Below, in pieces: positions 2,271 through 59,738 of a stretch of 64,000 nucleotides of DNA. The translations under genes were made by a program, and so were the position numbers. The first letter of the stretch is position 1; each line of letters starts with the position of its first letter. The DNA lies in the NCBI GenBank assembly GCA_021432605.1, contig MU271149.1, forward strand, positions 1,364,001 to 1,428,000, given 5' to 3'. The DNA comes from Coniochaeta sp. PMI_546. Lineage: Eukaryota; Ascomycota; Sordariomycetes; Coniochaetales; Coniochaetaceae. The notes under the pieces are model-generated. The model made no database searches, was not told the DNA's origin, and was given only the letters and a program-made list of their open reading frames with translations.

Positions 2271-4828
2271 TGTGATGCCTTTAATCGTTGATGGTGTTAT
2301 TTTTCAGGGAAGTAACTGCTCTTCTCTCCTTTAGTCAAATCTAGACAGAGAAAGATATTTCACGTTATGGCTTGACTTTGTCGGTTGATTGATCAATCGA
2401 CAGTTGAAGTGGAGTTGGGGTTGCGTGGAACCGAGGCGAGGTCATGCGAGCGGAGCATCTGATCACTTGACTGAGCTCCATGCTAAAAGCTTAAATGTGC
2501 TTCCTCTAAGGCAAATCTTCCTCATCTCATCGATATTAGTTAATTTTTGAGTTCCTGTGATTGAGCAGGTCGGATGTACTTGGCTATAGTCATGCATTGT
2601 TATGACCTATGTTCATTACTATCGCGGAGCTGTTTCCAGGGCACTAACACTAAAGCCTCGGCTTCTTTCCCATGACCGTAACAATGTGACGACCTTTGCA
2701 TATCATTTTTCACCTCCTCACACAGAAGAACTATGCTTATGAATGCTTGGTGGCCTTGATTTATAGCTGCGGACAGGACGTGAGTATTGCAGCATCTTGG
2801 AGGTTGGATTTGATCTTTTCAGAGTCTTGGAGCGATTTTACGAATGCTTCGTCGACGATTTGGGTCGATGCGCTCGCAGGCAGGACTACCTTAGTTACCT
2901 GCATGGTTGCGCAAGGCAGTTCGCAAGACCGGTGTCGTAGGCCTGTGTGCTTGGATCTGCCTTCGCCAGTGCAAGGAAGCCTGGCGACAGTCATATGCGT
3001 CGAGGAGGCAGCTTTCGAGAGATAGGTCCTGCCATGAAGATCTTGAATGTTAGGTTTCACGGGTTGACTAGACGTCTAAATCCTAGAAGGAACTTGACTA
3101 AATCGGTATGAAGAGGCCACCGCTATGAAGAGATGACGTTCGCCGAATAGGTTCACCGAGTAGACAATCCTGTGCATCCCCTTGTATCAGATCTAGACCT
3201 GTGTGAAAGGACGAAAAGTCGGACTCACTAATGTTATTCTTCCATACCCAGCGCAGTGTGATCTGCTTCGAGCCCTCCGCCTGGTCGTATCCTGCTTCTC
3301 AAAGTGGCATTGGGTCTGTCACCCTGCAGAAGTGCTTTCATGACTGCGTCGTGCCCTTCGAAAACGGGATGATGTAAAGGTGTGAATCAACGTAAGTTGG
3401 AAGGTTCCCACCCGGTCCAAGCAGTTCACATCAACCTCACACCGACTAAGCCTCGAAACGATACCAAGGGGTAATGCGAACAGTTGAAGAGACGAGTTTG
3501 TGATCGAGAAGAAACGGTAAAGCAATGAACGCTACTTCTTAATTGTTTCTGTCGAAACCAAAATATGGTGGCTTATGCGAGAAAAGGGTAGTGGTCAAGC
3601 GCGTTGTCCACGTGTTTCATCCTGTGCTCGTACTCATTTGCGTAGATCGGGCCAATATCAGAGCTTCCGAAAGAAACGAAGCGGAGATACGTGAGGCAAG
3701 TCGAGGCCATTGCCTGTTGTGCATTTTTGGGCATCAGCCATGACTACAACGTCCAAGAGCTGTTGGGTTATGTCCCCTGCGTGAATGTGCGACCACTTCG
3801 CAGCTGGAACTTCCCTCGTATAGTACTCCTGCTTTGCATCCCACTGCCAGAGCCTTAGTCGTCGCTCCCTCAGGACGATCGCAAGGCACTTATTGTATCA
3901 AAAAAAGGGCAGCAGTCATGGAGCGCCAGGCTTTTGGCTCAGATGCTCAAACACACCTGTCGGATCTACGAACGGCTGAGCAACAGAGGTAGACGAGAAT
4001 TCGGAATATGGCATAGGGGCTGTCTGAGTAAGCTTCTGGACTGCGATTGACTCTCGATGGAGATTCCATACACGACGGCTTCCTAGCTCCAGGTTGTTCG
4101 AAGGCGACCTCGCCCTTCATTCTAGTCACTACGGCATAGGACATGGACGGATCGTGCTGTCTTGGCTCAGGCGATCTCAGCGAGCCGCGTATCAGAGCCC
4201 TTGAGGAAGACACATTCGTTGCAGTCGATGCCATCATGCAGCGGCCCTCCGTGATGATCCTCGAGCTGAAGGTGATCGAGCGTGCTCGGTATTGATTGTG
4301 AAAATTTGATAAAGTTCTCAGTACAGTGAAAGCAGAGCCTGATGAAGCTCCACTAAGGAGAGCCAGTCAAAACCAATCTATATCACAGTACAAGACAGGT
4401 GAGAGACTTCCCAGACGTCGAATCCATATTCACCTCCGAAGGCAGGATCGACCCTTGAAGATCTCTAGATCCGCCCGAGATTCGAAGGGTCCCAGTACCC
4501 ACAAATGCCCCACTACAGAATCCCTCTCAACCAATCAGAGGCCCTCATGCTCATTCCCGCCAGTTGCCTAGTTCACCGCAAAAGGCAGAATTCGCACCTC
4601 GCCCGTTTTTGCGCCATCGCATTTTTCCCCGCACTCCGCAGATCGGATTTCCCTTCGCTCTCTTGCTGTCAACTCACACAACCAAGACACCGCGAGACCG
4701 GACCACCAAGTCTTAAGCAGCCGTCCATTGCTCGCTAACACGGGACATCTGTGCTGCCGCCGGAAGAAACAGGAGCGTGCCGGAAGCCCGCCCTCTGCAT
4801 ATCACCTCCCCTTCCCCGCTACCCGTAC
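2271..4828. other. intergenic region, no gene seen
   Basis: This 2.5-kb region lies between the 5' ends of two divergent genes and probably holds both promoters and leaders. The short frames inside look random. One copy of the 10-mer ACTACCTTAG lies at 2885-2894. Confidence 0.4.
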
Positions 4829-7241
4829 ATGGATAGTCCCGCACTTGTCGGACCCGGAGGGGCGGCTTCGCTAAGCCCGACCAGCCCTGTGAGCATTCGC
4901 AGCATAGGCGCCGCAAATGGGGGTCTAAAGAGGAAGAGGAGTGCCGGAGGCGTCGTCAGCGCCATCGACAGCAGTCCGGGCAGTATTGGCGATGAGAATG
5001 ACATTGGCGAGCATCATGACAGGAAGAGACAACCCGGCGTAAAGAGGGCTTGTAACGAGTGTCGCCAGCAAAAAGTGAGTCATGCCGTATCACCAACCAC
5101 CACCACCTACGCTTGTCGCGTTCAACAACCAAATCCTGGTTTTGACTTGTGTAAATCACCGATTGCCTGGACAATGAGCTAATTATATCGTGTTCAATCG
5201 ATAGTTGCGATGCGATGTCGTACAAGAACCCTTCCAGAGCTGCTCGAGGTGCAACCGCCTCAAGCTCGATTGTAAGATCGAGTCCAACTTCAAACGCGTT
5301 GGAAAGCGCTCCAAGCATGCAGAGATGGAGAAAGAGATCGACAAGCTTCGCCGCGCCGTGCACAGCGCAAAGGCGCAGGGCTTTGTCTTCGAGGAGCCTG
5401 AAGATGACGGCCACTCGCAGCTGCATTCTCCCGTCGTCAACAGCGTTTACACACACACCAGGAACCCGTCCCTGATGGGCTCGGACGAGGCCGTTTCTTC
5501 GCTACTACATCTAAAGCGCGGTGGTTCCTACGCCATGCCTCGCATTGCTCGGGAATTAGAAGACATCAGACTCACAGAGGAAGCCGAACGCCAGTTGTTC
5601 GAGGAGTTCTTCACATACTATCACCCATTCTTGCCATTCCTTAACCCCTCTCAGACCCCTGACCAGTACTATCAGCAACTGAACCTGCTGTACTGGGCCA
5701 TAATATCGGTGGCTGCTCGTCGCTACGCCGCTGATCCTACATTCCTCACACAGCTATCCGGCCCCTTGACAAGGCTACTATGGCAAACCATTGGCGACGT
5801 TCCACAGAGTTACTATGCTGTCAAGGCTATGTGCCTTTTATGTACATGGCCTCTTCCCACAAGCACATCGGCCTCGGACCCTACACACATACTCGGCGGG
5901 GTGATGATGAAGACAGCGACTGGCATTGGCCTTCACCGGCCAAATCACATCAACGACTTCTCTCGGGTTGCCTTGGACCTAAACACAGAGCAGTTGCACG
6001 ACAGAGTGAAGACGTGGGCTGTCTGCAACATCGTTGCGCAGACGATCGGCACAGGATATGGGCAGCCAGCCTCAACGCTATACGACTGGACTCTGGCTGT
6101 ACGTCCAGGCGATTCAGGTCCTTTGGCACTGACGCCGGAGCTGGAAGCAAGATTGCAGATTGAGCGGTTCTGTGACAAGGTCTCAAAAGAGATGTACAGT
6201 AACGCGAGTGATCCGAGAGGCGTCGCTGGTGACGAACATCGGGCCATGCTCATGAGGGTGTACCGCAGAGAGTTTGGCGAGCTTCAAGCCTCCATTCTCT
6301 CACAAAACTTGCCGCCATTCGTGATCCTGCATCTCAGAGCAGCGGGCCTTCACCTGCGGCTTGCCGGATTCTTCGACTCCAGTACGACGCCTGGATATAT
6401 GGACGATCTCATGGGCCTCTGGCGCGCGACCGTCAGTTTCCTTGACTATATACTTGATGGTGACTCGAAGTACGGCGATGGCCGGATAGGAGGGGAATAT
6501 TTCCTCACCTATGCAACGAACTACATCCAGCAGATGCTGGTAGCTGCAGGGTTCGCCCTGCTCAAGCTTTTAAGGTCATTCTTTGCCAAGTCTGTCGATT
6601 TTGATCGTGGCCGGACTCTCTTCCATCGGACGGTCCAGGCCATCAGAACAACCAGTGTGGTCCAGAACGACTTGAACTGGCGCCTTGCGGAGCTCATGGT
6701 GCAGATATGGAACGGTGCCCGTATGGACAATAGCAGTCGAGGCTCTTTCCACGGGGACGACAACGCCGATATCGACGACAGCCTCCAACTCAAGGTCCGG
6801 TGTCGACATAGCATGAGTCTCGTGTTCGACTCGATCTGGCACTGGAGAGAAGAATATCAAGCTAGGGGTCGCGGTACACTCGATGGTAAGTCGGACCCGA
6901 AGTTTCTTGTATCCAGCTCTAAGCTAAGAAAATATCCCTTGGTAGCCCTCAAACAACCTACAAATCCTGATTCGGCTAATGAATCATCAGCGTCCTCTAC
7001 TCATTTGGATAGCACGCTGATGCCGCCGAACCACAACATGGCGCCGAGTATGAACATTGCCACGTCCAACGGCGCGCTTACACCGAGTGCCGCCAGCGGG
7101 CTGGCAGGTAACGGACAAGGGAGCTCTGTGCTGGGAATGAATTATGATAATAGTTACGATGTTTGGGATCCCCAACACTGGATGCTGGATGGACTGCTGG
7201 ACTTCAACTACGCCTTCGTACCACCGCTTGAGGGATCCTAG
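4829..7241 (+). CDS. Zn2Cys6 fungal transcription factor, Leu3/War1-like
   Basis: The proposed exons are 4829-5074 and 5205-7241, with a 130-nt intron (GTGAGT..TAG). A further in-frame 60-nt intron at 6886-6945 (GTAAG..TAG, with CTAAG inside) is likely. The protein is about 740 residues with that intron removed, or 760 with it retained. The ATG at 4829 is the first in frame; the open frame upstream has none. The first intron splits the zinc cluster. After splicing it reads C-x2-C-x6-C and C-x2-C-x6-C around residues 73-103, followed by a basic linker and a short coiled coil (EMEKEIDKLRRAV), the usual dimer element. The middle region (YYHPFLPFLNPSQTPDQYY, then an ISVAARRYA helix) resembles the middle-homology region of Leu3/War1-type regulators. 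A low-complexity Ser/Asn/Pro tail ends in an acidic/aromatic segment that could activate transcription. The target genes are unknown. Confidence 0.9.
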
Positions 7242-10200
7242 GAGATCTGACCATGCGTCGAGGAGTTTCGGATGGGATGAGATGATGAGAGCAAAAAAAA
7301 AAAACCAAAAGGGCCGAATGAAGCCCAACCTGTGGGAGAAGGGCATGTTTGGCGAAGCATGCGTGGGGTGGATGGGATCGGGCTGGACTGGCTCACACTG
7401 TCAGATTGTTTGAAGCACAGGCGATGCCACGGCGAATACCCATTTACATTTTTACCTTGCTTTTATGGCATGCGAACATGTCAAGGTGGTGGCACAAATG
7501 GCTAGGCGAGAGCGCGTTTCAGATGTGTGCAAACATCAAATATAATTATTGCTTGTCGCACAACAGTCGAAGCGATAGGACATTGCAGTTTTCGAATCTC
7601 TGTCTCCCAATCAGGTCTGTGCCTTCGCCTACGATGGATATAATTCTTGTCCCTAGTTGTGTGACTTCAATTCCTCGGTGCCGAGATGCATCCCGGAGAA
7701 AAGCTGGAGGTCGGTTACCTGCCGCATCTGAGGTGGACGGCCCTTGGTTGGGGTATCTGGACGAGCTCCTTCGTGTGTTTTCGCTTGGTGTGTCAGTCTC
7801 GAATATCACCGGATCTCGTATCCGCAAGTTTGAGGTGTCTTCACATAGGTCAAACTCGATTCGACGTCAAGCATATCATGGGCGCTTGCATGATCGACTC
7901 GCGGTCACTCCGAGGACGATATACCCTGTTGCGGAACAGCAACCTTCTGGAAGCAATGATGGAATGATTTGGTTCGGTAGCTTGACGCCTCCATTCTATT
8001 ATTGTGATACGCATCGCACCTCTTGACATGCTTAGCGTCCGCCACAAGCGTGATGGAGAGGAGGTGCGTTGCAGCAAAGGGTCACGCGAGGCAAGCAAGT
8101 TTGCTTTTTGTTCTTTGCGCTATTGATCACAAACTACCGCAAACAGAAGGCACTCTAAGGAAATACCACATTGCGGCCTTCAAGCCGCAAGACGGGAGAT
8201 GAGGTTGCTTGACTCGTGTTGTTTCTGCAAATGAACTACCTTAGAAATGACACCCTGGCTAACAGATGTCGTTCTGGCACTTCTTTGAGCGCGCCAGTGT
8301 CCCTCGCAGCCGCGGATCGCAGTTAGTATTGTGAAGACGGTGTTGGTGCATTCTGGCAGCCCCATTCCTACGGCACGGCTCGTAGTCGATTGTGACGAGA
8401 TGGGGACACGGTGTTTCCAACTGTAGGATTGGAAAGGCATACTTGTGTCTAAGATGGTAAGCTATGTTGTTGGACGACTTAAGATGAAACAGCACTTAGC
8501 ATCTAGTCTCCTGTTCTCTCCATCAGCACCGCACGTCACTGGTAGCGACTTTTCTTCCACGTTCGCGACACACCGGCTCGCGTGACCCGGGAGGCCGGTC
8601 GTCGGCTCGGCGCGTAGATATGGTTGTTGGTATCTGGCACTGCAGCGAGCTGGCCTGCCCGGGGCTACTAGGCCAACGTTGAGCCTGGCCGGTGGTCGTG
8701 AGAGCACCAATAAATTCTGGTGATAGCCATTAGCGTAACGGTCATGATGTAACGCAAGGCAGATGATGCGTAGGAGAACATCTCGTCCGAGGACAGGCGC
8801 AAGAACTAGGGCGTGCCCATGGCCGCGGAAAGCGCCGTCATGGCCGTGACCGTCGTTCTCTGGGCATCTCTGGGGATACTCATGACAGAAGTCCCTTCGA
8901 AGGTCTGCGGATGTACCGTGAACTCTCTGGGAATGTATCGACGCACTAGATAGGAGGCAACAGGCAGATCGGCAATAACAGACGGGAGCTATAGAACTTC
9001 ACATGCTTTCTTCGCCCTGCGAGAGAGTGCTCCCACGTTCTCAGTGGCCGCAATACCGAGATCATGAACCAAACCGCTGGAGTCCGTCTGCAAGTCCATT
9101 TGCGGATGATGTCGACTGCCTGATCTGCCTCAGCTATCCAGAAATCGACGGCCGGCACCAGACGACCAGGCAGTAGCGTCGGCGCCAGCCATCGCTCGGA
9201 CAAGGCTGTGCAACTACACAGGAGACAAATGAGGAAGTCTGGATAATTGCACTGCAAATTCCGAACCGTCAAAGGGGAAAGAGGCTGTGCTCTGTCGCCG
9301 ATGTTGCGGAGACGAGGCAAGAGTCGACACGGCAGTATCCCGGGCCGGCACAACGGGCCAGGCATGTGAGGCGGAGTTCACCAAAATGGCCGGCCCCCAA
9401 TGCGGCCCGCACTGAATACAGCCCCACCATATGTTCGGTGATCCAGTCAACGACGTGTAGTCTGAATGCGTCTCTAGAAGAAACACAGACTTTCTTCGTT
9501 TCGTCACATGAGACGAAGTATCTCCTTTTTGCTGCTTTTTGCCTATTGCTACCTCATCGTTGCCCGTCGAATGACGGAGTGACCCGGAGCTGGCCGCCGA
9601 AGTAGTGGCCGCCCTGCCTTGCCGGTGATGATGCTCCTTACGGTCTGGTCAATTGAGGACTCATAACGACTAAGGGGCTATTCGGCTGAATATCATAGTT
9701 TCGGGATGCTAGAGTGTCACGGTGTGTTCGCCGGTCCCGGCCGCGTGCAAAGGCAGGGTATCTCTAGGCTGGCAAACCTGGCTGTACAGGAGTGGAGCGA
9801 CGGTGACTTCTCACCTCGCCAACGATGGACCTCGCACATGTGGGAGCCTCATACTCAGTTGTCTGTCTCCTTGGCGATGTTCTTGCTAGGAACAGGGAGT
9901 AGTAGACCTGAAGCAGCGAGTACGGATGTTGGAGGTATGTGTGCAACCGCGTTCACACGACCACACAATCTCGTCCATGCAAGACACACACACCGACGAA
10001 CTGCCGTTAGTGCGGTATTTTGACGGACAGCAAAGTCACTTAAGCTACTTGCACACAATCAATGTCTAGTGCAGGTAGGGGAGGGCTGCAGGGGGCTGCT
10101 GGCCCGCTTCGAATCAAGGTGTCTGCTCAGATGCCGTACTGTCTGCCCGTTGTGGAAGCTGGGCAAGGGCGCGATGTGGCGCACATCCTGTTCAGCCCAT

Positions 10201-30952: not shown

Positions 30953-33900
30953 GTTGGGGAGGGAAGAGGGGAGGGAGGAGAGGAGAGGGAGAAAAGGCTC
31001 TCTCGTAATCTAAGATAGTAAAGTAGAGAAGGTTGGTGCCACAGGCAAGGCACTTGCTTTGTTTGGAGAGGGGTGTGAGCACGAAAGGCTTGGGTGTACG
31101 TTGTGAAGGGAGAAAACAACGTCGAGAAGGCAGGAGTGTTCGGATACGGTGCGCAACTTTGGATGAGAAAAAAAAAAGCAATCGGTGCAATCGGCCCCTT
31201 GTCAGGATAAGAGTCAGAAGCTAAGACGGTTGGGAGTGGGGTCCCGTCAAATTCACGGTTCAGGTTTTCTCTCTCGGGCCACACCGATCCTCTACACTAC
31301 ACGTAAATGGAGATTCGGGAGCAAGATGGTGTGGTGTCGAGGGGTCTTGTCACCATCGTTCACGCGCTCTGGGGCTTACTTTTCCAAGGCTGATACCGCC
31401 ATTCCGCCATTACTGGCGACGCAGAGATAACACGGAGGGACTAGCTTACCTGTACTACCTTACTTCAGCTTATCTGCACACTCCCCCCAACCCAGTCCTG
31501 CTGGAGGTTGCTAGCCGCACTCCTGCCTGAAATCGCATTTTCCCTCCTGAAGTAGGAAACGCATAATCCAGGCTCACCGCTATCGCTTGCGGAGAACACA
31601 GTGCGCTGAGGGCTTTCTTCGACGTTTCGTCGTCCTCGCTTCTGTCACTTCCGAGACATGTCAAGAAGCGTGGTCTCATGCATAAGAGTGGTCCAGATCG
31701 ATCCTGGACCGGGCTTGTCATTGTCACCCGGATAGCATGGCGGTGTAATAGCAAATGGTAAACCGTCGACGAGGCAGGTGGACTGGTGGGATAAAGATGA
31801 AAACCCATTACCCCACCATGCCACTCTCCCGAATAGTGCAAGCTAAGCCTGCACCCACTTTAAACAGGTTGCGATAGCGGGGCATTTCTTCAGACGCGCT
31901 CAGTACACTACAGATACAACAACACAGTTATCTTGGCACGCTCCTGACTCGAGGCGTTTTGGACACGGGGCGATTTACGATTTGAAAGACGCTGGAGTTG
32001 ACAAACATGCAATCCCAGAGTGATAGCTACTCAAGGCTCTGATGTCATATACCTAGTCTTAATATTCACAATCAGGCCCAGTATGGGCTGAAGTCCGATC
32101 CTGCTGCTGCATGCATCATGTAAATGTACTGTATATGTACATGTAGATGTAGCTGCAGCTGCACACTGCTGCAGCCCCTTCCCAAAAGCATTGTGTTCCG
32201 TAAGGCTTCCAGAAAACACCGACCAAGTTGCGATTGGCGTGAGCTCTTGCCTTGCTTTACCAGAGCTGGGCAATCTTTCCGCGGTGCAAGGGAACAGGGG
32301 CCTATCTTTTCGCCAGCCTCCTTCCCCGGATTTGCAAGGAAGATGGCGTTCTGAGGGCTCTGTCAGGCGTCAGTCTAGTAGGCGTCAAGCTAGTACGTAG
32401 GTGTACCTTGGTGCTCACAGCTAATGTACGTTGGGCATCTATCTGACCTTTGAAGTCTCGTCCGAGACCCTCCGCCCTAAGAATACCTAAGGCACAGAGC
32501 GTTGAAGCAATCGCTCGGCAGAAACACACCATATGTCACCTTCCTCTTCCTGAAGACGTAAGCCCACAGCACTTTATCAAGACGTCAACAAAACCTGCGG
32601 CCCCAATTAACAGTCGGCCAATTCAGGCGGCCCATCAGACCACAACCTTGGACTTGAAGGCCCCAAACCCCCACCGCAACACAGGCACGGTTCGACTTCG
32701 CACATGTCCAATTACGAATGCTGGGTGGTCTGTCTAACCAGATGGCGTCACGCCGATGCCTGCTCAGTCGACACTTTGCGGTGCTTCCGACACCCGGCTA
32801 TCCAGACGTAATGGTTATTGCCTCGAACGTTCACACGGCTCCTCCTTTTCTTCTTGTTTCAGTGCCCCAACAGAAACGAGTGCTGCCCTCTACGAGACGA
32901 ACGAGTCGGAATGCATCAATTCACTCGCCTCGGAGCAATATAGAGGGTCTTGGTGTTTCGGTTAGACCAACAGAGTGCAAGCACTGTCCGCTTGGCGAAG
33001 TACAGCCATCCAAGCCCTGGTGAACACCATTTCACACCGTCAATAGGCATGTCAGCAAATATCTCAGGCCCAGGTCGAATCATATCAACTCGTGGTACAG
33101 ACACACGCCTACAACCCCCACGCACGGCTGCTTAACACAGGTAATTGCATTTAACGGCACACCAGTGGCGTAATCATTTATCCCAACATCTGGACCTTAC
33201 CACAGCCAAGCAGGCGTACTTCTTTGCCGAGGCCGGTGTTCCTGTCTTCGACCTGTATTACACAACATGTGTACGAAGCAGACGAGCTGCCTTGTACTGA
33301 TCCAGTGAGAGACTAATAATCGTCCCAAAAACTTGAGCAAACTATGCGTACTGCAAGGTCGATTTACCTTCACAGCTGCACGAAATCGTATCTCAGTTAA
33401 GGCTCGTACCGGAGATGCCCAAAGACCAGCTCTGACTTAGATTGACTCTTCGCCATCAGACGAAGAGAGGCAATGTGCTCTGCCGGGCCGTACTTCCAGC
33501 ACGCACCGAGCTGGATACCTTGAGATAACGCTGCCTGATTTGGGACTCGGGCAAGCCGTCATGATTTTGACAAGCCGCTTCGCTGCTGAGCACATCTGCT
33601 TGCGCAGATGTTGCACCCTGACAACACCACCAGGCCCGTCAGCCAGCGACTGAAAGATGAGAAGCCGCGTAAGTCACCTCTGAATTCGCGCAGTATAGGG
33701 TAACCGTTTCGCGATTCGCACCTACATTGGCAGCGGATATTCCCCAGCAAATAGCTTATGCTCCATACGCTTCGCTTTGCTTGAGAACATCCGCCGAGAA
33801 CAACATTGGATCGCCATGCTGGAAATTTTAATCCTCCTTTGTTAGGCCCCTGGGACTTAGGCTACAGCGCAAATGCACATCAATCATAGCTAAAGGTGTA

Positions 33901-51196: not shown

Positions 51197-52720
51197 CTAG
51201 TACTTGAATGTAACCGTCTTCGTCCTCACCCACTCATGGAGTCCGATGGCGTTGAACCTTCCATAGCCGCTCGACTTGGCACCACCATGTGGCAGGGCGC
51301 TCTCATCGTGGATAGTCATGCTGTTGATATGCACCGCCCCAGTCTCTATCTCCTTCGCAAACCTCAATCCCCTCCTCAGGTCCTCGGTGAAGACGGCTGA
51401 TGTGAGACCGTACTCGGTGTCGTTCGCAATCCTCAGTGCCTCTTCCTCCGTCTCGATATCGAACAGCGAGACTGTCGGTCCGAAGCTCTCCGTCTGGTAG
51501 ATATCCATGTCCTCGTTGACCCCAGAGATGACAATCGGCCGCATGCGCGTCTTGGTAGACTCCTCCACGTCAACACTGCCGTACACCACCTTGGCACCCT
51601 TGGATATAGCGTCCCGCATGAGTTTCTTGTTCTTCTCCACGGACGGCGCATGGATCAGCACCGGCGCGTCCTGGTCGCCCCCGAAGATCTGGTCGATCGC
51701 CCCCTTGAACTTCTCCTCGAACGCGGCCCGCACCTTCTTGTGCACGAGGATCCGCTCGGTCGACATGCACACCTGGCCCGAGTTGAAGAAGGCGCCGATC
51801 GCGCACCACTTGGCCGCGTTGTCCAGGTCCGCGTCCTCCCACACGATGGCCGGCGCCTTGCCGCCCAGCTCGAGGAGGACGGGCTTCAGGTGCTCGCCCG
51901 CGAGCTTGCCGATGATGCGCCCCACCGGCGTGCTGCCGGTGAAGTTAATCTTCTTGATCACCGGGTTGGCGATCAGGCTCCTCGTGATCTCGGCCGCGGC
52001 CGAAGGCTCGTGGACGAGCATGTTCAGCACGCCGGCCGGCAGACCGGCTTCATGGAAGACGGAGCAGATGGCCCACATCACCCGGGGGCTGAGTTCGGAA
52101 GCTTTGAGGACGGCTGTGTTGCCTGCGGCGATGGGGAAGATGACTGAGCGCGCGCCGAGGATGTACGGTGCGTTCCTGAACACTGTTAGTCCCGGACTGC
52201 TTAGATCATATCGAGGTAGGAAGTAGTAAAGCGCTTACCAAGGAGCAATCGCCAGAATCACACCGAACGGCTCCCTGAGAACCAGAGCACCTGTGTTCTC
52301 ATCCTCGGTCGCAGGGAAGGATCCCTCGAGTCCCGCAATGCGACCGGCGACATCGATGATCAGATCCTTTGCTACGTTGATGTTGAACTGCGCCCATCCT
52401 TCTGACGCACCCGTCTCGGCCATCATGTAACCGACGAGTTCCGCCCTCCTCTTCTCCATGATCTCAGCGGCCTTGAGAAAGATGTCCCTGCGCGTCTTCG
52501 GGAGTGCCCTCCGCCATGTCAGGAAAGCCTTGGCTGCCGCATCGACCGCTGCTTGCACCTCGGTGCTTGTTGCAGCGCCGCACTGGTGGACGACCTTGAG
52601 GGTAGCTGGCGAGGTCACGTCGAACTTCTTCGCTGGGTGGATCTCTTCGCCGTTAATGAAGAAAGGAACAGAGTAGCTGGCGCCATTTGCCTGGCCGGCT
52701 TCATTGTTGTCGGAAACCAT
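51197..52720 (-). CDS. NAD(P)-dependent aldehyde dehydrogenase, salicylaldehyde/vanillin dehydrogenase-like
   Basis: The exons are 52720-52239 and 52175-51197, with a 63-nt intron (GTAAGC..TTCAG) that splits the Trp of the APWNAP motif. The product is 486 residues, the normal length for the superfamily. Recognisable parts are the cofactor-binding NFTGSTPVGR, the general base Glu in LLELGGKAP (about residue 263) and the nucleophile Cys in FFNSGQVCMSTER (about residue 297). The C-terminal ESFGP and HGGAKSSGYGR blocks are also present. The enzyme oxidises an aldehyde to the acid. The similarity I see is to the group acting on aromatic aldehydes, but the substrate is not established. No targeting signal is obvious, so it is probably cytosolic. 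Confidence 0.95.
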
Positions 52721-53900
52721 CCTTGCTGTTGCTTTTGTCCTGACACTTTCAAATTTCTCTCCTGCCTCGGAGAGCTTTTTAATTCTAGGAAGTCAGTCAA
52801 GGTGCTGGGAATGTGAAGGAGTAGAGGGAGAGAGAAGGTCCCATCAACGCCTCGCGCAAGTGGAATCGATGATGAGCGTCTTTGGTCATATACGCGTGGA
52901 TCGCTACCCGCATGGCCAGGACTTTTACCCCATATCGGAGTTATCACCAACCGGGATTACCAACCGCTCTCCAAAAAGGGCAGAGCAGATCCCCGCATGG
53001 CGGGAAGTGGGCATGATTTAGCTTACCTTGGGGGCTGCAGCGGTACCTTGGCGTTGGTTTGGTTGCCGACTTGTACTGGAAGCTTTTACAAAGTCCGAAA
53101 CGTCGAGGGTGTCGATTCTCGTCCGTGATGCGAAGGCACTGTAACCCTGTTTTGTGATCCTGCGCGTATGCTTTGTGATCAACAACCTCTACCACTGACT
53201 GTCCTAACAGTAGGAGGCTACAATGGGACTCCGACAGAAGCTGCAGATCAAGCCAGCGGCGAGAGTTCCCAACTTCGACGTCAAATGGACCCAAAAGACA
53301 ACTAGAGTCCAGAGGCTAAGGCAGGTGGAAATGCGGGGCTTCCGGCGGGGCGGTTCGGCATCTGTTCGAGGCATCGGCTTCTTGTCGCCGGGAGCTTCCC
53401 GGCAGATACCCCACTTCCGGAAGAACGTTTCTTAATCCAATGGCGGGCCTCGGAACGGTCCTGGGTTACGAAGCCGACTTCATCCGTGTCACTACCTAAG
53501 GTAGTCTAAGCAGGAGAAGGAGCATTCGTCACTGACAATAGCAGGAGGCTTAGTGAGCTGGGAAGAAAGATGTTTGACAGCGCTTCTTCTCTACTACGTG
53601 ATGTCTTGGAGATCCAGGCGCTATGCTAATCCCCCGGCACCAAGCCTCGGACTTCAATGTTGCATTCCTCTATCACTCTGAGGCCAAGTCTGTCATCGTG
53701 TTGCCCATGTCAGATGTCTCCCAGGTCTATTTATGTCTTCCAATCCTCAGTTTTCCATGTCGGTTCCATGTCCGAGTCCATGTTTCTGTCCTCCCCGTCT
53801 GCTTCGCCCATATCTGTGTCTGCGGTCGAGCTTCCCGGTTCTCTGAAGGCTGTGGTACAATTAGCTAGAGTCTCCCCAATCAATGACAGCCTGATCTCAT
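52721..53900. other. intergenic region
   Basis: This is upstream of the aldehyde dehydrogenase. It includes the palindrome-family element ACTACCTAAGGTAGT at 53491-53505. No gene supported. Confidence 0.4.
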
Positions 53901-54553
53901 TTACTCACCCGGAGAACGCGGTTGATTTGTGTCTTCCTGATCCGGGAAGAGTCTCGTCCACAGCTCATCCCATGCCAGAACGTCGTCCTCCAATACGCCG
54001 TCCCCGATGCCATCCTCGACATCGAGGTCACGGTGGCTGATTTCACACCAATCCTCGCGTCGAATATGTGCACGCAAAGCATCCTCGGTGCGGAAATCTT
54101 GACGGCATCGGAAACAGAAAGTGAATTTGCGCGCATGGGTAAACTTGATATGACACCTGCCAGTACACACCACGTCAGCCACTCTGCCTGGAGCTTTGCT
54201 TACGGCAGCTGAAGATTGGTGATAGCCTACAGGAGGTCCTCCATATCCTCGAATCCAGCGAGAGCGCAGTCCGGGTAATCTTGTTCGTTGAATCGGTCAG
54301 GGTTGCGTTTGCGGTAGGGGCAGCTGTACCCATGAGTTGAACGGCGCTCTGCCGTGTCTCCTTGAGCTATGCTTGGCAACCAACCTGGTACTCTTGATGC
54401 AATAGACGGTCCACCATGACCAGAGGCTAGTGCGGAGGCGGATCCGCCCGTGGTCGGAGCCTTGGAGTTGGCACTATCCGAGTTGACACGTTCAGAGTCG
54501 GCATCTTCGGACTCTGTGCCGTCACTATGGGAGTTATTGGGTTCGCGAGACAT
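53901..54553 (-). CDS. small double-zinc-finger protein, paralog A
   Basis: The exons are 54553-54231 and 54156-53901, with a 74-nt intron (GTAGGC..GGCAG, phase 2). The product is 192 residues. A Ser/Asp-rich N-terminus of about 85 residues leads to the module HGYSCPYRKRNPDRF. The metal-ligand pattern is C-x17-C-x13-H-x4-H, then C-x2-C-x12-H-x6-C. The tail has AWDELWTRLFPD and ends near RSPG. The same spacing occurs in the two genes to the right, and the intron falls just before the first His in all three. The pattern resembles the expanded Pezizomycotina C2H2-like family, in which a CP[YF].KR.P block is followed by a second finger and a W..L..LFP tail. The function is unknown; nucleic-acid or protein binding through zinc is likely. 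A TATAAAG lies about 145 bp upstream. Confidence 0.8.
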
Positions 54554-55599
54554 CGGTATAATATCGCGATTTGCTTGTCGGAGAACTATACTGATCCCTA
54601 TTTGGATGGCAGTGATGGTTCCCGTGTGAAGATGAGTTGAACAATGGGTTTGCCTGTTATGACAGCAAGATCGGACTGGGCACGCACATTGAACTGCTTT
54701 ATAAATGGATAGTATCACATTTCATGGTCAGAGTCTACACAACTGGTCATAATGACAAAGAACAAACGTACTATCTAGCAGTGACGTATGGTGATGGGCC
54801 CATTGTTCTTTGAATGCTCTTTCCACTTGTAGCCCACTGTCGGTTGGAGGGATCTGAAAATCATGGAATGGACATGTTGTAGCGGATACATGTTTAGGAT
54901 TGCAATGAAATGTGGACGTAATGCTCTTGCTCACAATCCACGGTCAAGTACGATTGATTTCAGTTGAGATACCAAATCATTCAAACCACTCTCAATTTCC
55001 ACGCGGTCTTCGATAGTCAGTCCCAGCTGCCCATCCCCTGAGGCTAGCGTTTGACACTGTCCATCAAGTGTTGTCTCTGATACAGCCCTCGCGTTCAGGC
55101 CGCTCAGTGACGCTCGATCAATTCCAGCTGCTGGTTATCTGGGCTGGTTGCCATTCTTAGCAGATCTCTTTGCCCAAAACGCGTGCGGTGGGATCGAATG
55201 AGTGTCTCTAGGCGAGCTTCGTGAGTCGCAAATGGCGTACTCTGCGTGAGTCCCCTAGATGAGCTACTTCTCGATTTGAGGGACTCTGCGTGAGTGTGCC
55301 GCTTGCCGTGCTCTCAACGGGATGAACTGTAGCTTATGGCTCTGGCTCGTCGGAAATCGAGAGCTAGTAATAAACATCGACTTAGCGAGTACCGTCGACG
55401 ACGATCTACAAGACGGACAATGTGTGGTACTTGATTCAGAACCCTACTGGATCAAGCAGTCCAATTGTCGTCTTCATATTCGCAGACTTATAAAATGTAA
55501 CTCTCCATCTCCCAGGCAGGCCACTACCCTTTGCCACAACCACCAGATATTCCTAACACCAATTCCATTGTCGTTCGCGAGGTTCTCAAAAACATCATA
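54554..55599. promoter_or_regulatory. shared divergent promoter region of paralogs A and B
   Basis: This 1.05-kb region lies between two divergent paralogs. TATA-like boxes are found at 54697-54703 (minus strand, for A) and 55489-55495 (TATAAAA, for B), each about 110-150 bp from its ATG. No gene seen inside. Confidence 0.5.
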
Positions 55600-56116
55600 A
55601 TGTCGGAAACTCTAGGCCAGGGGCACCAAGAGGAGACGCCTCCTCCCGAAGGATATGGCTGCCCGTACCGTAAATGCTACCCGCATCTCTTCACTGTCGA
55701 GGAGTACCCAACGTGTGCACACACGGCCTTCCCGACGATGGGAGCTCTGAAGTAAGATGCAGTCATTCCCTCCTCAATGCTGACCACACTCGGGACAAAG
55801 TCGGCTCATACTTACGTCTAGGACTCATATCGCGACATACCACAATGGTAGTCACGTGTGCCACTTGTGCGGTACCCCCCTCAGCGACGTACGTGCAGCA
55901 AGCCTGCATTTCTACGCCACGCGCGGTCACTGTAATGACGGTCATCCGGCGCCGACGATACCTGGCCGGCGGGAGATGGACCCGCTTGTTGCTGAGTCGT
56001 GGCAACATCTTTGGGCGCGAATTTTCGGACACACCCCTTATGCGGATCAGCCAATGTCCCCCGGTAACGAAAACCATAATATCAAGAGTATACGGAAGCT
56101 AGAGCTGACGGTGTGA
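55600..56116 (+). CDS. small double-zinc-finger protein, paralog B
   Basis: The exons are 55600-55751 and 55822-56116, with a 70-nt intron (GTAAGA..TCTAG, phase 2). The product is 148 residues. The N-terminus is short (about 17 residues) and the module begins EGYGCPYRKCYPHLF. The ligands are C-x17-C-x13-H-x4-H, then C-x2-C-x12-H-x7-C. After the second finger the tail has SWQHLWARIF and MSPG, matching A and C. The first-finger block YPHLFTVEEYP is more diverged than in A and C, and an extra Cys follows CPYRK. The gene is plus-strand and tandem with C. The function is unknown. Confidence 0.8.
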
Positions 56117-56773
56117 CCCAGGATTCCGAGCTCCAGAGTAGAAGGATATTAGATCTAGGCTTCGACTTGATGACATGGCGATGAGGCACAGACACTTGTA
56201 ATACTTTTGGAAGGATCTAGAGATTTGATCTCGGCCGGAGGGAGGGCGACATTGATCATTGAATTTTGGAATAGGGGCTATGCGTGTAACATAGAGCAAG
56301 AATAGCCTTACTGATAGACAGAATCGAAAGTCTGATGACATGACCATCAAGCCCCAGTGACGTACGGCCATTGGTTTCAGTGAATAGAACCTGCTGGAAG
56401 CAGTAAGATATAATGAAATCTAAGGCGCATTTGAGGAGGATCTAGTCATGCTAAACACCCCTTCTCTCACATGCCTTTCTAGAACACAATGCCAGGTTCG
56501 CTGTGTGAATGTGCCGACTCAATCAGTGAGTGCCAACTCCTAATCAAACAGACAGCCAGAACAACCAAGGATTGAACAATCGGAGATGGGCGATATTTGG
56601 AACAAAACTACCGTGATTCAACAAGCAGCCGGTAGCCACCCATTGTGAAATTGGTATATATAGCGCTGGCCTTCACCTCTCCTGCCGCCTTGACCCTCTC
56701 GCCCAAGCCAAGCTCAAGTCAAACTCAGAAACAACAACATCCGTAACTCGAGCCTAATTTTCAATACCTCACG
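56117..56773. promoter_or_regulatory. promoter region of paralog C
   Basis: A strong TATATATA box lies at 56655-56662, about 110 bp upstream of the paralog C ATG, with a C-rich stretch just downstream. No gene seen in the rest. Confidence 0.5.
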
Positions 56774-57298
56774 ATGAGCACCAGATCTGCGAGGCAGCCT
56801 CCTCCTCAAGGATACAGCTGCCCTTACCGAAAGTTCAACCCGGACCACTTCAACGAAAATGACTACCTGGAATGCGCCAGATCATCTTTCCGGACGATAC
56901 AGGACGTCAAGTAAGATCCTGGCTCCTGCGCTCTCCAAGCCGCATGACGCCGTGTCTAATAAGATGGCCTGTTTAGACAGCACATCGCAATTTTTCACCG
57001 CCAGTCCGCCAACAGCTGCGTAAATTGCGCAGAGCCTTTCGCAACAGAGCAGGAGTTGACGGCACATCTTTCGCTTCCCACCGAGAAACTATGCACATTC
57101 ATGACACCCGGGGAGGAGATGATGTTTGGCGGATACGAGCGGCTTGTTACGCCGAAGTCGGAATCCTGGAGGTCCCTCTGGGCAAAGCTCTTCGGCAGAG
57201 CTGAACGACCCAAGTCTCCCGGTGGGTATAGAATCACCGCCTTGCGTTCACGAGGACTTCTCACTGACTGTATCTTGGTAGCGTTCCGAGAGCCGTGA
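56774..57298 (+). CDS. small double-zinc-finger protein, paralog C
   Basis: The exons are 56774-56910 and 56977-57298, with a 66-nt intron (GTAAGA..TTTAG, phase 2). The product is 152 residues, or 132 if an in-frame 60-nt intron at 57222-57281 (GTGGGT..GGTAG, with CTCACTGAC inside) is removed. The module starts QGYSCPYRKFNPDHF. The ligands are C-x17-C-x13-H-x4-H, then C-x2-C-x12-H-x8-C. The tail carries SWRSLWAKLF and KSPGG. The first finger is closer to A than to B. A TATATATA box sits about 110 bp upstream. The intron position relative to the first His is the same as in A and B. The function is unknown. Confidence 0.8.
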
Positions 57299-57644: not shown

Positions 57645-58288
57645 TCATTTTCCAATCCCCAAACTACCGGAGCCGCTGGTGCTGCCCGAAGTGCGAAACG
57701 TGCTACCAGTCCCGGAGCTGGAAGAGCTGTTGCCACTGCTCCGTGAGTTATACACCGCAATATTGATGTAGGTATTGTTGCTGTTATTGCTGTAGCTGGC
57801 TGGATAGTCTGCTGCGCCTCCATGATCCTTATTGCTTTGGGTGTCTCCGTTCGGGGTACCGTAACTGACTAGAGTGTCTGCCGCGCCTCCGTCGCCGTCG
57901 TTGCAGGAAGCCTTCCCGTTAGACATGCTGTAGCTGGGTGGTCTAGTATAGACGGCGCCTCCTCTCCCATCATTGTAGTAGGTGCTGCCGTCTGGATTTG
58001 AGTAGTAATAGGAACCGTCACTAGTGGCTGTCAGTTATCCGTCGTGCGAGGTATGCCTCAGCCTGTAGGACATTGCTTGAGGACTGATGGGCGTATGCTT
58101 ATTTACCTGTTGGAGTAGTGATACGAGTTTTGGTTTGCGGCGCTGGGTCCGTAGTCTCTCGTGTAGTAGTGGTTCCCCTGTCATGTCAATGTCAACAAGA
58201 TCCTGGCTCAGCCTGTCCTTGATGAGCTGGGCGCTCTTACATCTCGGTTGGTGCCGTGGCTCTCGTAGGCAAAGCCTCTGCCCGACAT
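57645..58288 (-). CDS. small Gly/Ser/Tyr/Asn-rich protein, long paralog
   Basis: The proposed exons are 58288-58241 (48 nt), 58177-58107 (71 nt) and 58020-57645, giving 164 residues. It starts MSGRGFAYESHGTNRD and continues GNHYYTRDYGPSAANQNSYH, then DGSYYYSNPDGSTYYN across the second intron. The next gene to the right on the same strand has the same three-exon plan, with the first two exons identical in length. The C-terminal exon is longer here and contains an imperfect repeat of a GGA-x2-Y unit (NDGRGGAVYTRP, NDGDGGAADTLVSY, KDHGGAADYPASYS) before a Ser/Gly-rich end. No signal peptide or enzyme motif is visible. The family looks like a conserved small fungal protein of unknown role. The three small exons make it easy to miss by frame length alone. 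Confidence 0.75.
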
Positions 58289-58914
58289 TGATTCTGTTGG
58301 TAGGGAGTCTAGGTGGTAGAGTAGTGGCGTCGACTGCCAAGCATGCGCTCACAGGGTATGGACTCACGACGACGATGAAGAAGATAAAGAATAAGTTGGA
58401 GTCAGCTTGGGACACGGTGTTTGTTATAGCAATGGCCAGCAACCCAGCACAAGCTATGCGGGGATTTAACTTTTCAACGGAGCTGGAGCTCAAACTCAGT
58501 TGACTTGACATCGGTTGTCAGAGTACCGGGGGCTGCATATACTATGTCTCAGACGCCTCGGTGCCAGTCGTCTGAACTTCAGAACAGCTTGGCATAACCC
58601 TGATACCGGGGTTCAGCTCTGTTTGCATATATCCCCTTCCATCACTTGTAATAATGTACTCACTGTTGAAGGCAAAAGAAACCGACCACTAAGTCTAGCC
58701 GGTTGTGGTGAATGAGATTACCGTCCGTCGTCAGAAGTGGATTTATGAAGGCCTGTTCATTACTCTGTGCTAATGCCATGTCTAAGCTACGGCCCGGAGA
58801 CGGCGAGACAGCCTCTTGAAGCAGACCGATCGCATTTTCTCCAGCATGAACACCCTCCTTTTGTGGTCCTCACAGCCATGTTGTCCACCCTAGCACTGTT
58901 TCCTAACCGACCAC
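58289..58914. other. spacer between the tandem Gly/Ser/Tyr paralogs
   Basis: This 626-bp spacer is the 3' flank of the short paralog and the promoter side of the long one. No gene supported. Confidence 0.4.
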
Positions 58915-59333
58915 TCACTTCTGTGAGCCAGAGCCGCCAGAGCCACCGCTGCTGCTTCCGGATGTGGAGGAAGAGTTACCTCCGCTGGGCGGGGTGTACG
59001 TCGCACTACCGGCACCATTATTGTAGTAGGTGCTTCCGTTGGGGTTGGAATAGTAGTATGAGCCGTCGCTGCGAGTTGTTTAGCTATTAGTGCTGATTCG
59101 GAGGGCCAAACGACTTTGTGCATTGGGGTAACAAGGCGGGCAAAGGTGAGATGCTGCTTACGAGTTGGAGTAGTGGTATGAGTTGGAATTAGCCGCACCG
59201 CTGCCATAGTCTCTGGCGCAGTAGTGGTTGCCCTGTGGCGTTTACTTAGTTACGAATACTCAAGCTGGGTCGCTCAAATACTGACCTGGCTGTTGGTGCC
59301 GGAGCTCTTGTAGGAGTATTCTTTGCCGGACAT
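58915..59333 (-). CDS. small Gly/Ser/Tyr/Asn-rich protein, short paralog
   Basis: The proposed exons are 59333-59286 (48 nt), 59232-59162 (71 nt) and 59068-58915 (154 nt), giving 90 residues. It starts MSGKEYSYKSSGTNSQ, continues GNHYCARDYGSGAANSNSYH and DGSYYYSNPNGSTYYN, and ends in a Ser/Gly-rich tail closing GSQK. The introns are 53 nt (GTCAGT..CACAG) and 93 nt (GTAAGC..CGCAG). The protein is hydrophilic, aromatic and disordered-looking, with a single Cys. A TATATAAG box lies at 59469-59476, about 140 bp upstream. The Y-rich block NSYHYSN-DGSYYYSNP-GSTYYN is shared with the neighbour. I recall similar small proteins in other filamentous fungi, but their function is unknown to me. Confidence 0.8.
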
Positions 59334-59738
59334 TTTGTCTGTGTGCAAGGCAGTTGAAAGAAGTTGCAGTGATTGGCGGTGAGAGCAAAGTACCGGGAGT
59401 ATTTGTTGGTGAACCAAGCAGGATGTTAAGAAGGGAAGAAAGGAAGAGAGGTGGTGGGAAAAGAGGTGCTTATATAGCCAAGCAGGAGGCGGGGAAGGCA
59501 GGCTTTTGGGTTTCGTATTCACCTTCCTCAGCTCACTTGAGAAAGAACAAAGGGTGAGAGAATGGTGACAGGGACATGCGACGGTATCGGAGCAAACGTC
59601 CGGGAAGGTGCAACAGGAACGCCACTCGGTGAGTTGGCATACCAGAATTGGTCTTGATCCTCAATCTTGGGTCAAACGGCATGACGCTCGTCTATATGCA
59701 TTGTTGCTAAATCTTGTCTATCAATGAAGCACACCGCT
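59334..59738. promoter_or_regulatory. promoter of the short Gly/Ser/Tyr gene and 3' flank of thioredoxin reductase
   Basis: This region contains the TATATAAG at 59469-59476 on the minus strand. Nothing else recognised. Confidence 0.45.

Follow-up and report, generated by a model that had tools for sequence, protein, structure and literature searches.

Three short double-zinc-module genes in Coniochaeta sp. PMI_546 as probable truncated members of a genome-wide zinc-finger family

Proteins with the pattern CP[YF].K..P ... HRVKEHLYRRH ... C..C ... LFP ... SPY form a family that we take to be widespread in Pezizomycotina, where its members presumably appear under the label 'C2H2-type domain-containing protein'. 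Here we describe three small genes of this type, A, B, and C, which form a cluster within a 64,000-nucleotide (nt) stretch of the Coniochaeta sp. PMI_546 genome (C7:1364001-1428000 in our contig numbering; hereafter the window). Judging from sequence comparisons within the genome, the cluster is most likely a shortened variant within this known kind of fungal zinc-finger family. More broadly, three transcription-factor families are reported to be expanding in fungi, C2H2-like genes among them (PMC5415576), and C2H2 fingers are reported in 34 NLR proteins of Sordariales (PMC12258605).

A family extending beyond the window

Each of the three genes encodes C-x17-C-x13-H-x4-H, followed by C-x2-C-x12-H-x(6-8)-C. 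The first-pass annotation of the window had described this spacing for one minus-strand and two plus-strand genes, and it was found in all three. That annotation had also read the exact spacing as the sign of a local gene family and had proposed an undescribed system in the window. Neither proposal survived a search of the whole genome (33.48 Mb, 24 contigs). Using A, C, B, and the domains of C22, C1:875, and C6 as queries, we found the module at no fewer than nine further loci, all such counts being lower bounds: C22:262464, C1:4054439, C1:875423, C14:333575, C6:862381, C18:282753, C18:280637, C7:261053, and C4:707338 (shortened below, e.g. C22 and C1:4054). These lie on six other contigs, with one locus 1.16 Mb away on the window's own contig. 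As the ligand spacing and the introns described below are common to these places, they are properties of a genome-wide family, and we rejected a local undescribed system.

Membership was assessed by both single-query and profile searches. The C22 domain matched A, C, and B with E values of 1.4e-12, 1.2e-15, and 1.3e-8, respectively. Two loci were weak in single-query searches (C18:280, E 0.017; C4, E 0.24), and leave-one-out profiles recovered each of the nine non-window members at E 6.9e-17 or better. A profile of these nine was then run against 1704 open reading frame (ORF) pieces of the window together with the three spliced proteins, returning C at 5e-19, A at 3e-18, and B at 3.8e-8. The earlier suggestion that these genes are small free-standing versions of the CP[YF].K..P family was therefore borne out, with every match at E 3.8e-8 or better. 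A profile of the seven most distant members, built without the two nearest relatives, still returned C at 4.6e-14, A at 1.9e-11, and B at 2.8e-4. On this sequence evidence, A, B, and C almost certainly belong to the family within their own genome.

The family profile revealed no further copies or remnants in the six frames of the window at E < 0.01. A weak match at 51306-51569 (E 0.016-0.08) lies inside an aldehyde dehydrogenase ORF, in another frame, and was rejected as chance; a second at 31013-31201 (E 0.93-0.97) was also taken as chance. Elsewhere in the genome, C18 carries a local pair of family members that share one orientation and are separated by about 2 kb (C18:277500-287000, at about 2889-5674 of that segment).

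Alignment of the 12 members delineated the shared module. Site 1 follows C-x(12-17)-C-x13-H-x4-H, with x14 in C4. Site 2 follows C-x2-C-x12-H, with x11 in C18:280, and a last Cys lies 5-8 residues on in 11 of the 12 members. A W..LF segment and then SP make up the tail of the module throughout the family. Larger members have long open frames (857, 430, and 385 aa), and that of C1:4054 extends hundreds of residues on either side of the module. The window genes lack the long region that follows exon 2 in these larger members, with 39 residues after SP in A, 6 in B, and 5 in C, which we treated as truncation and not as a defining feature. Genes B and C are domain-only, having 20 and 15 residues, respectively, before the first Cys. 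Gene A, which splices in frame, has 77 residues before the module and an acidic C-terminal tail. Loss of most of the flanking sequence of the larger paralogs fits these gene models best.

A tree of the 12 members (135 columns) placed A, B, and C on one branch (support 87/89), with C22 next (87/88). The branch joining these four with C1:4054 (98/99) was the sole one above the program's own threshold. Gene B is the most diverged of the three copies, and the long branches of B, C18:280, C4, and C7:261 make details of the tree unsure. At a minimum length of 25 nt, a single DNA repeat joined any of the copies, a 73-nt stretch (79%) between A and C; as it is the lone link of this kind, a recent duplication is unlikely. 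Taken together, these comparisons suggest that A, B, and C probably belong to a larger fungal zinc-finger family as divergent and truncated copies, derived from an old local duplication of an intron-bearing ancestor.

Introns, gene models, and coding constraint

The three genes were spliced by script, with the sites of intron 2 chosen by eye (Table 1). Intron 1 interrupts the identical codon in A, B, and C, two codons ahead of the first His. In gene B, its branch-like CTGAC lies 42 nt from the intron end, more distant than in A and C. The second intron is 58-60 nt long in the three genes, starts with GT, and ends with AG; 15-18 nt before the end there is a CTRAY-like site.

Recognition of intron 2 changed the ends of the proteins. 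Exon 3 continues in frame as SPAFREPGSS... in A, SPGFRAPE-stop in B, and SPAFREP-stop in C, giving SP-[AG]-F-R-[EA]-P overall. The 'SPG end' attributed to all three genes in the first-pass annotation was thus read-through into this second intron, which follows SP; in gene C the intron is in frame without a stop and so had been taken as coding. With the intron in place, gene A ends at 53731, outside the interval first annotated, and gene B at 56141. The agreement of residues across intron 2 counts as support and not as a blind test, since the sites were chosen by eye. The same position recurs in four distant paralogs (C6, C18:282, C7:261, and C4), whose sites were also picked by eye.

Both introns recur beyond the cluster. 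Nine of the 12 members share the codon and phase of intron 1 (A, B, C, C1:4054, C6, C18:282, C18:280, C7:261, and C4); for six of these genes phase-2 sites alone were sought, and each gave one solution. C22, C1:875, and C14 have continuous frames that lack it. Seven of the 12 have intron 2, which lies in phase 1 behind Ser/Thr-Pro (A, B, C, and the four distant paralogs named above). In C1:4054 it is shifted one codon later, while the frame is uninterrupted at this site in C22, C1:875, C14, and C18:280. The phase 2 intron reported earlier at a shared codon therefore stands for A, B, and C, but not as a local hallmark, as six of the nine other loci also carry it. Because the introns sit at the same codons in a genome-wide family, those shared by the cluster would be inherited and not of local origin. 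Most simply, both introns were ancestral to the family and were lost in some members. The 857-aa ORF of C22, the closest larger relative, is without both introns, which could point to retroposition or to exact intron loss. In practical terms, gene models of this family can be corrected by a simple rule based on the two conserved introns.

The TATA-like boxes noted upstream of each gene were also recovered (Table 1); TATAWA boxes occur here in about 1-3% of 60-bp stretches.

Table 1. Positions of the three genes, their TATA-like boxes, and their introns, numbered from the first letter of the window
Feature	Position	Strand	Details
Gene A	53731..54553	-	3 exons: 54553-54231, 54156-53909, 53849-53731; 229 aa; ATG 54553
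Gene B	55600..56141	+	3 exons: 55600-55751, 55822-56063, 56122-56141; 137 aa; ATG 55600
Gene C	56774..57298	+	3 exons: 56774-56910, 56977-57221, 57282-57298; 132 aa; ATG 56774
TATA-like box, gene A	54696..54703	-	TATAWA at -150 from ATG
TATA-like box, gene B	55489..55496	+	TATAWA at -111 from ATG
TATA-like box, gene C	56655..56662	+	TATAWA at -119 from ATG
Intron 1, gene A	54157..54230	-	74 nt, phase 2
Intron 1, gene B	55752..55821	+	70 nt, phase 2
Intron 1, gene C	56911..56976	+	66 nt, phase 2
Intron 2, gene A	53850..53908	-	Phase 1, directly after Ser-Pro
Intron 2, gene B	56064..56121	+	Phase 1, directly after Ser-Pro
Intron 2, gene C	57222..57281	+	60 nt, phase 1, directly after Ser-Pro

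The pattern of substitutions among the three copies argues for coding constraint. Their shared core has 115 ungapped columns, of which 30 are the same in all three proteins; all eight C/H columns are among these (hypergeometric P about 1e-5 with columns treated as independent). Identity at codon positions 1, 2, and 3 is 45/55/35% of aligned codons for A-B, 51/60/40% for A-C, and 60/53/30% for B-C. Positions 1 and 2 exceed position 3 in all three pairs, which points to conservation at the protein level. By codon usage, the true frame ranked top of six in each gene. A, B, and C thus look like real genes, and their alignment supports paralogs with protein-level conservation of the putative metal ligands.

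Several observations weigh against the reading of A, B, and C as truncated family members with a two-zinc fold. The codon-usage scores of A, B, and C are 0.015-0.042 per codon, compared with 0.08-0.23 in six confident ORFs of the window. Support for the branch holding the three genes is moderate, and the branch of B is very long (3.02). Gene A retains sizeable extensions and so is not domain-only in the strict sense. Site 1 has a C-x17-C loop of unusual length, and no Pfam zinc-finger model scored over its cut-off. Finally, C4 is without the last Cys, so not every ligand is kept family-wide.

Just downstream of gene C, on the minus strand, two adjacent small reading frames rich in Tyr, Asn, Gly, and Ser form a tandem duplication (57645-59660). 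The pair shares three common blocks with 71-80% DNA identity, about 1050 bp apart, and a Pfam scan of two ORF pieces from it gave no match.

Possible function and rival explanations

From the ligand pattern, each of the three proteins would be predicted to fold around two zinc ions, one at a C2H2 site and one at the C2HC site behind it. A putative helix carrying W..LW..LF would provide a binding face. The isolated module may then share its binding partner, whether protein or DNA, with the module of the larger paralogs, such that the small proteins could act as microprotein-like modulators or competitors of those paralogs. We put forward this competitor mechanism by analogy, as a tentative possibility. 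A fuller version, in which three genes near-reduced to one double-zinc module, itself reaching no Pfam cut-off, form a cluster of constrained modulators of larger, HET-neighbouring paralogs, is doubtful.

An alternative is that the three genes encode small transcription regulators that stand alone and would act without the larger paralogs, binding DNA through two zinc fingers. The C-x2-C-x12-H-x(n)-C pattern does resemble a C2H2/C2HC finger, and an RKR run is present in A and in the C22 domain. Pfam searches with the first gene models of A, B, and C, in which intron 2 was still included, returned zinc-finger models at E values of 0.015 (A) and 0.0087 (C) at best, while B had one match (E 1.1). 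All listed matches were below cut-off; for zf-C2H2 (PF00096; 25.2 bits), A scored 14.8 and C 10.9, and B was not listed. Similar results were obtained for the domains of six larger members (all but C14, C18:280, and C4), none of which exceeded a cut-off, the matches of C1:4054 to zf-C2H2 (E 0.001) and of C7:261 to zf-C2H2_4 (E 7.5e-4) included. Net charge is -23 in A, -4 in B, and +2 in C, and no basic runs occur in B or C. The C-x17-C loop is unlike that of a classic DNA-binding finger, which also weighs against this alternative. DNA binding is possible but is not favoured by the charge or the loop, and stand-alone regulation of this kind seems rather unlikely.

Another explanation places the cluster in the fungal non-self/HET defence repertoire, where the module would serve for recognition or as a decoy. 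C2H2 fingers in 34 Sordariales NLRs are in keeping with this (PMC12258605, as far as reported there). We compared the distances of nine independent family loci to the 87 HET matches in the genome; this number, like the short GT..AG introns, is typical of a filamentous fungus. The median distance to the nearest match was 23.4 kb, and six of nine loci lay within 35 kb, a cut picked after the distances had been seen. Among 5000 draws of random positions on the same contigs, 0.28% reached that median (P about 0.003), and 0.24% had six or more positions within 35 kb. Control families were less close to HET matches: Zn_clus (146 loci; median 158 kb; 22% within 35 kb; Fisher P 0.007), APH (29 loci; median 120 kb; 4 within 35 kb; Fisher P 0.005, rank test P 0.014), and P450 (68 loci; median 68 kb; 19 within 35 kb; Fisher P 0.03), for which the rank test was marginal (P 0.04). 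At C1:4054, the nearest intron-bearing relative, an 871-aa HET-domain ORF comes directly after the family member on the same strand, the two together taking up 3828-8752 of the segment C1:4050000-4059500. For the window cluster itself, a HET match lies about 13 kb away, past the window end. A HET-domain gene, possibly of two exons, lies beyond the right end of the window at C7:1432738-1434811 and adjoins an ORF that looks amidase-like by eye.

Against a HET role, the sample comprises nine loci and the 35-kb cut was post hoc. Three loci (C1:875, C22, and C6) are 117-217 kb from a HET match, including C22, which the tree places closest to the cluster. Variable compartments in general may be marked by HET genes, and the closeness may reflect shared compartments of this kind. 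Whole-genome lists place no HET or NACHT match inside the window, and the Pfam scan of the first gene models of A, B, and C returned no NACHT, NB-ARC, or HET domain up to E 5. A general link to NACHT was not seen, as one of nine family loci lies within 25 kb of any of the 16 NACHT matches in the genome; the nearest to the window cluster is 98.6 kb away. Closeness of the family to HET genes is therefore suggestive only. The self/non-self link raised in the first-pass annotation gains weak encouragement from the HET distances and none from NACHT, and a place for the cluster in this repertoire is improbable.

Decay of full-length members into pseudogenes is very improbable: flanking regions have been lost, pairwise identity is low, and codon-usage scores fall under those of the six confident ORFs, but six GT..AG introns, three open frames, and 24 of 24 ligand residues are kept, codon positions 1 and 2 are conserved above position 3, and TATA boxes are present.

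Comparison with known families

The preferred reading of A, B, and C as truncated family members was set against described families and the literature. NCBIfam, which is built for bacteria and archaea, gave no match for the three proteins. A PDB search with the C6 member as query, in place of A, B, and C themselves, found no relative at E < 0.1, and searches of the open-licence PMC literature listed no paper naming the family. The module occurs in at least 12 places in this genome, yet it reached no Pfam cut-off in the nine members scanned. The small versions would reduce it to a minimal unit, in which two metal sites are joined by a Trp/Leu-Phe segment and by Ser-Pro, and they are good targets for a first structure and a partner screen.

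Relative to the Pezizomycotina CP[YF].K..P family, A, B, and C share the ligand spacing, the CP[YF] start, the W..[LIVM][WYF]..[LI]F segment, and the Pro end, and both introns occupy identical codons and phases in most members. They differ in being short (132-229 aa) and in lying in one cluster. The site 1 loop is C-x17-C in A, B, and C, whereas it spans x12 to x15 in the seven more distant members. At the Pro end, SP-[AG]-F-R in the three genes contrasts with PY in five of those seven.

The 857-aa ORF at C22:262464, nearest on the tree outside the cluster, shares C-x17-C-x13-H-x4-H, and its SPDFVPP matches SPAFREP. Unlike A, B, and C, it has a long open frame and no introns.

In classical C2H2 fingers (PF00096 and PF13894), the pattern C-x2-C-x12-H-x(n)-[H/C] resembles site 2. 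A, B, and C are set apart by scores below the Pfam cut-offs, a final Cys ligand, and the 17 residues between the site 1 cysteines. Fungal NLRs bearing C2H2 fingers (PMC12258605) may be alike in carrying a fungal C2H2 module, in proteins possibly of non-self function; A, B, and C differ from them in having no NACHT or HET match. The likeness to microproteins is clear for B and C, which are single-domain and homologous to a domain of a larger paralog, and less so for A, with its residues on both sides of the module.

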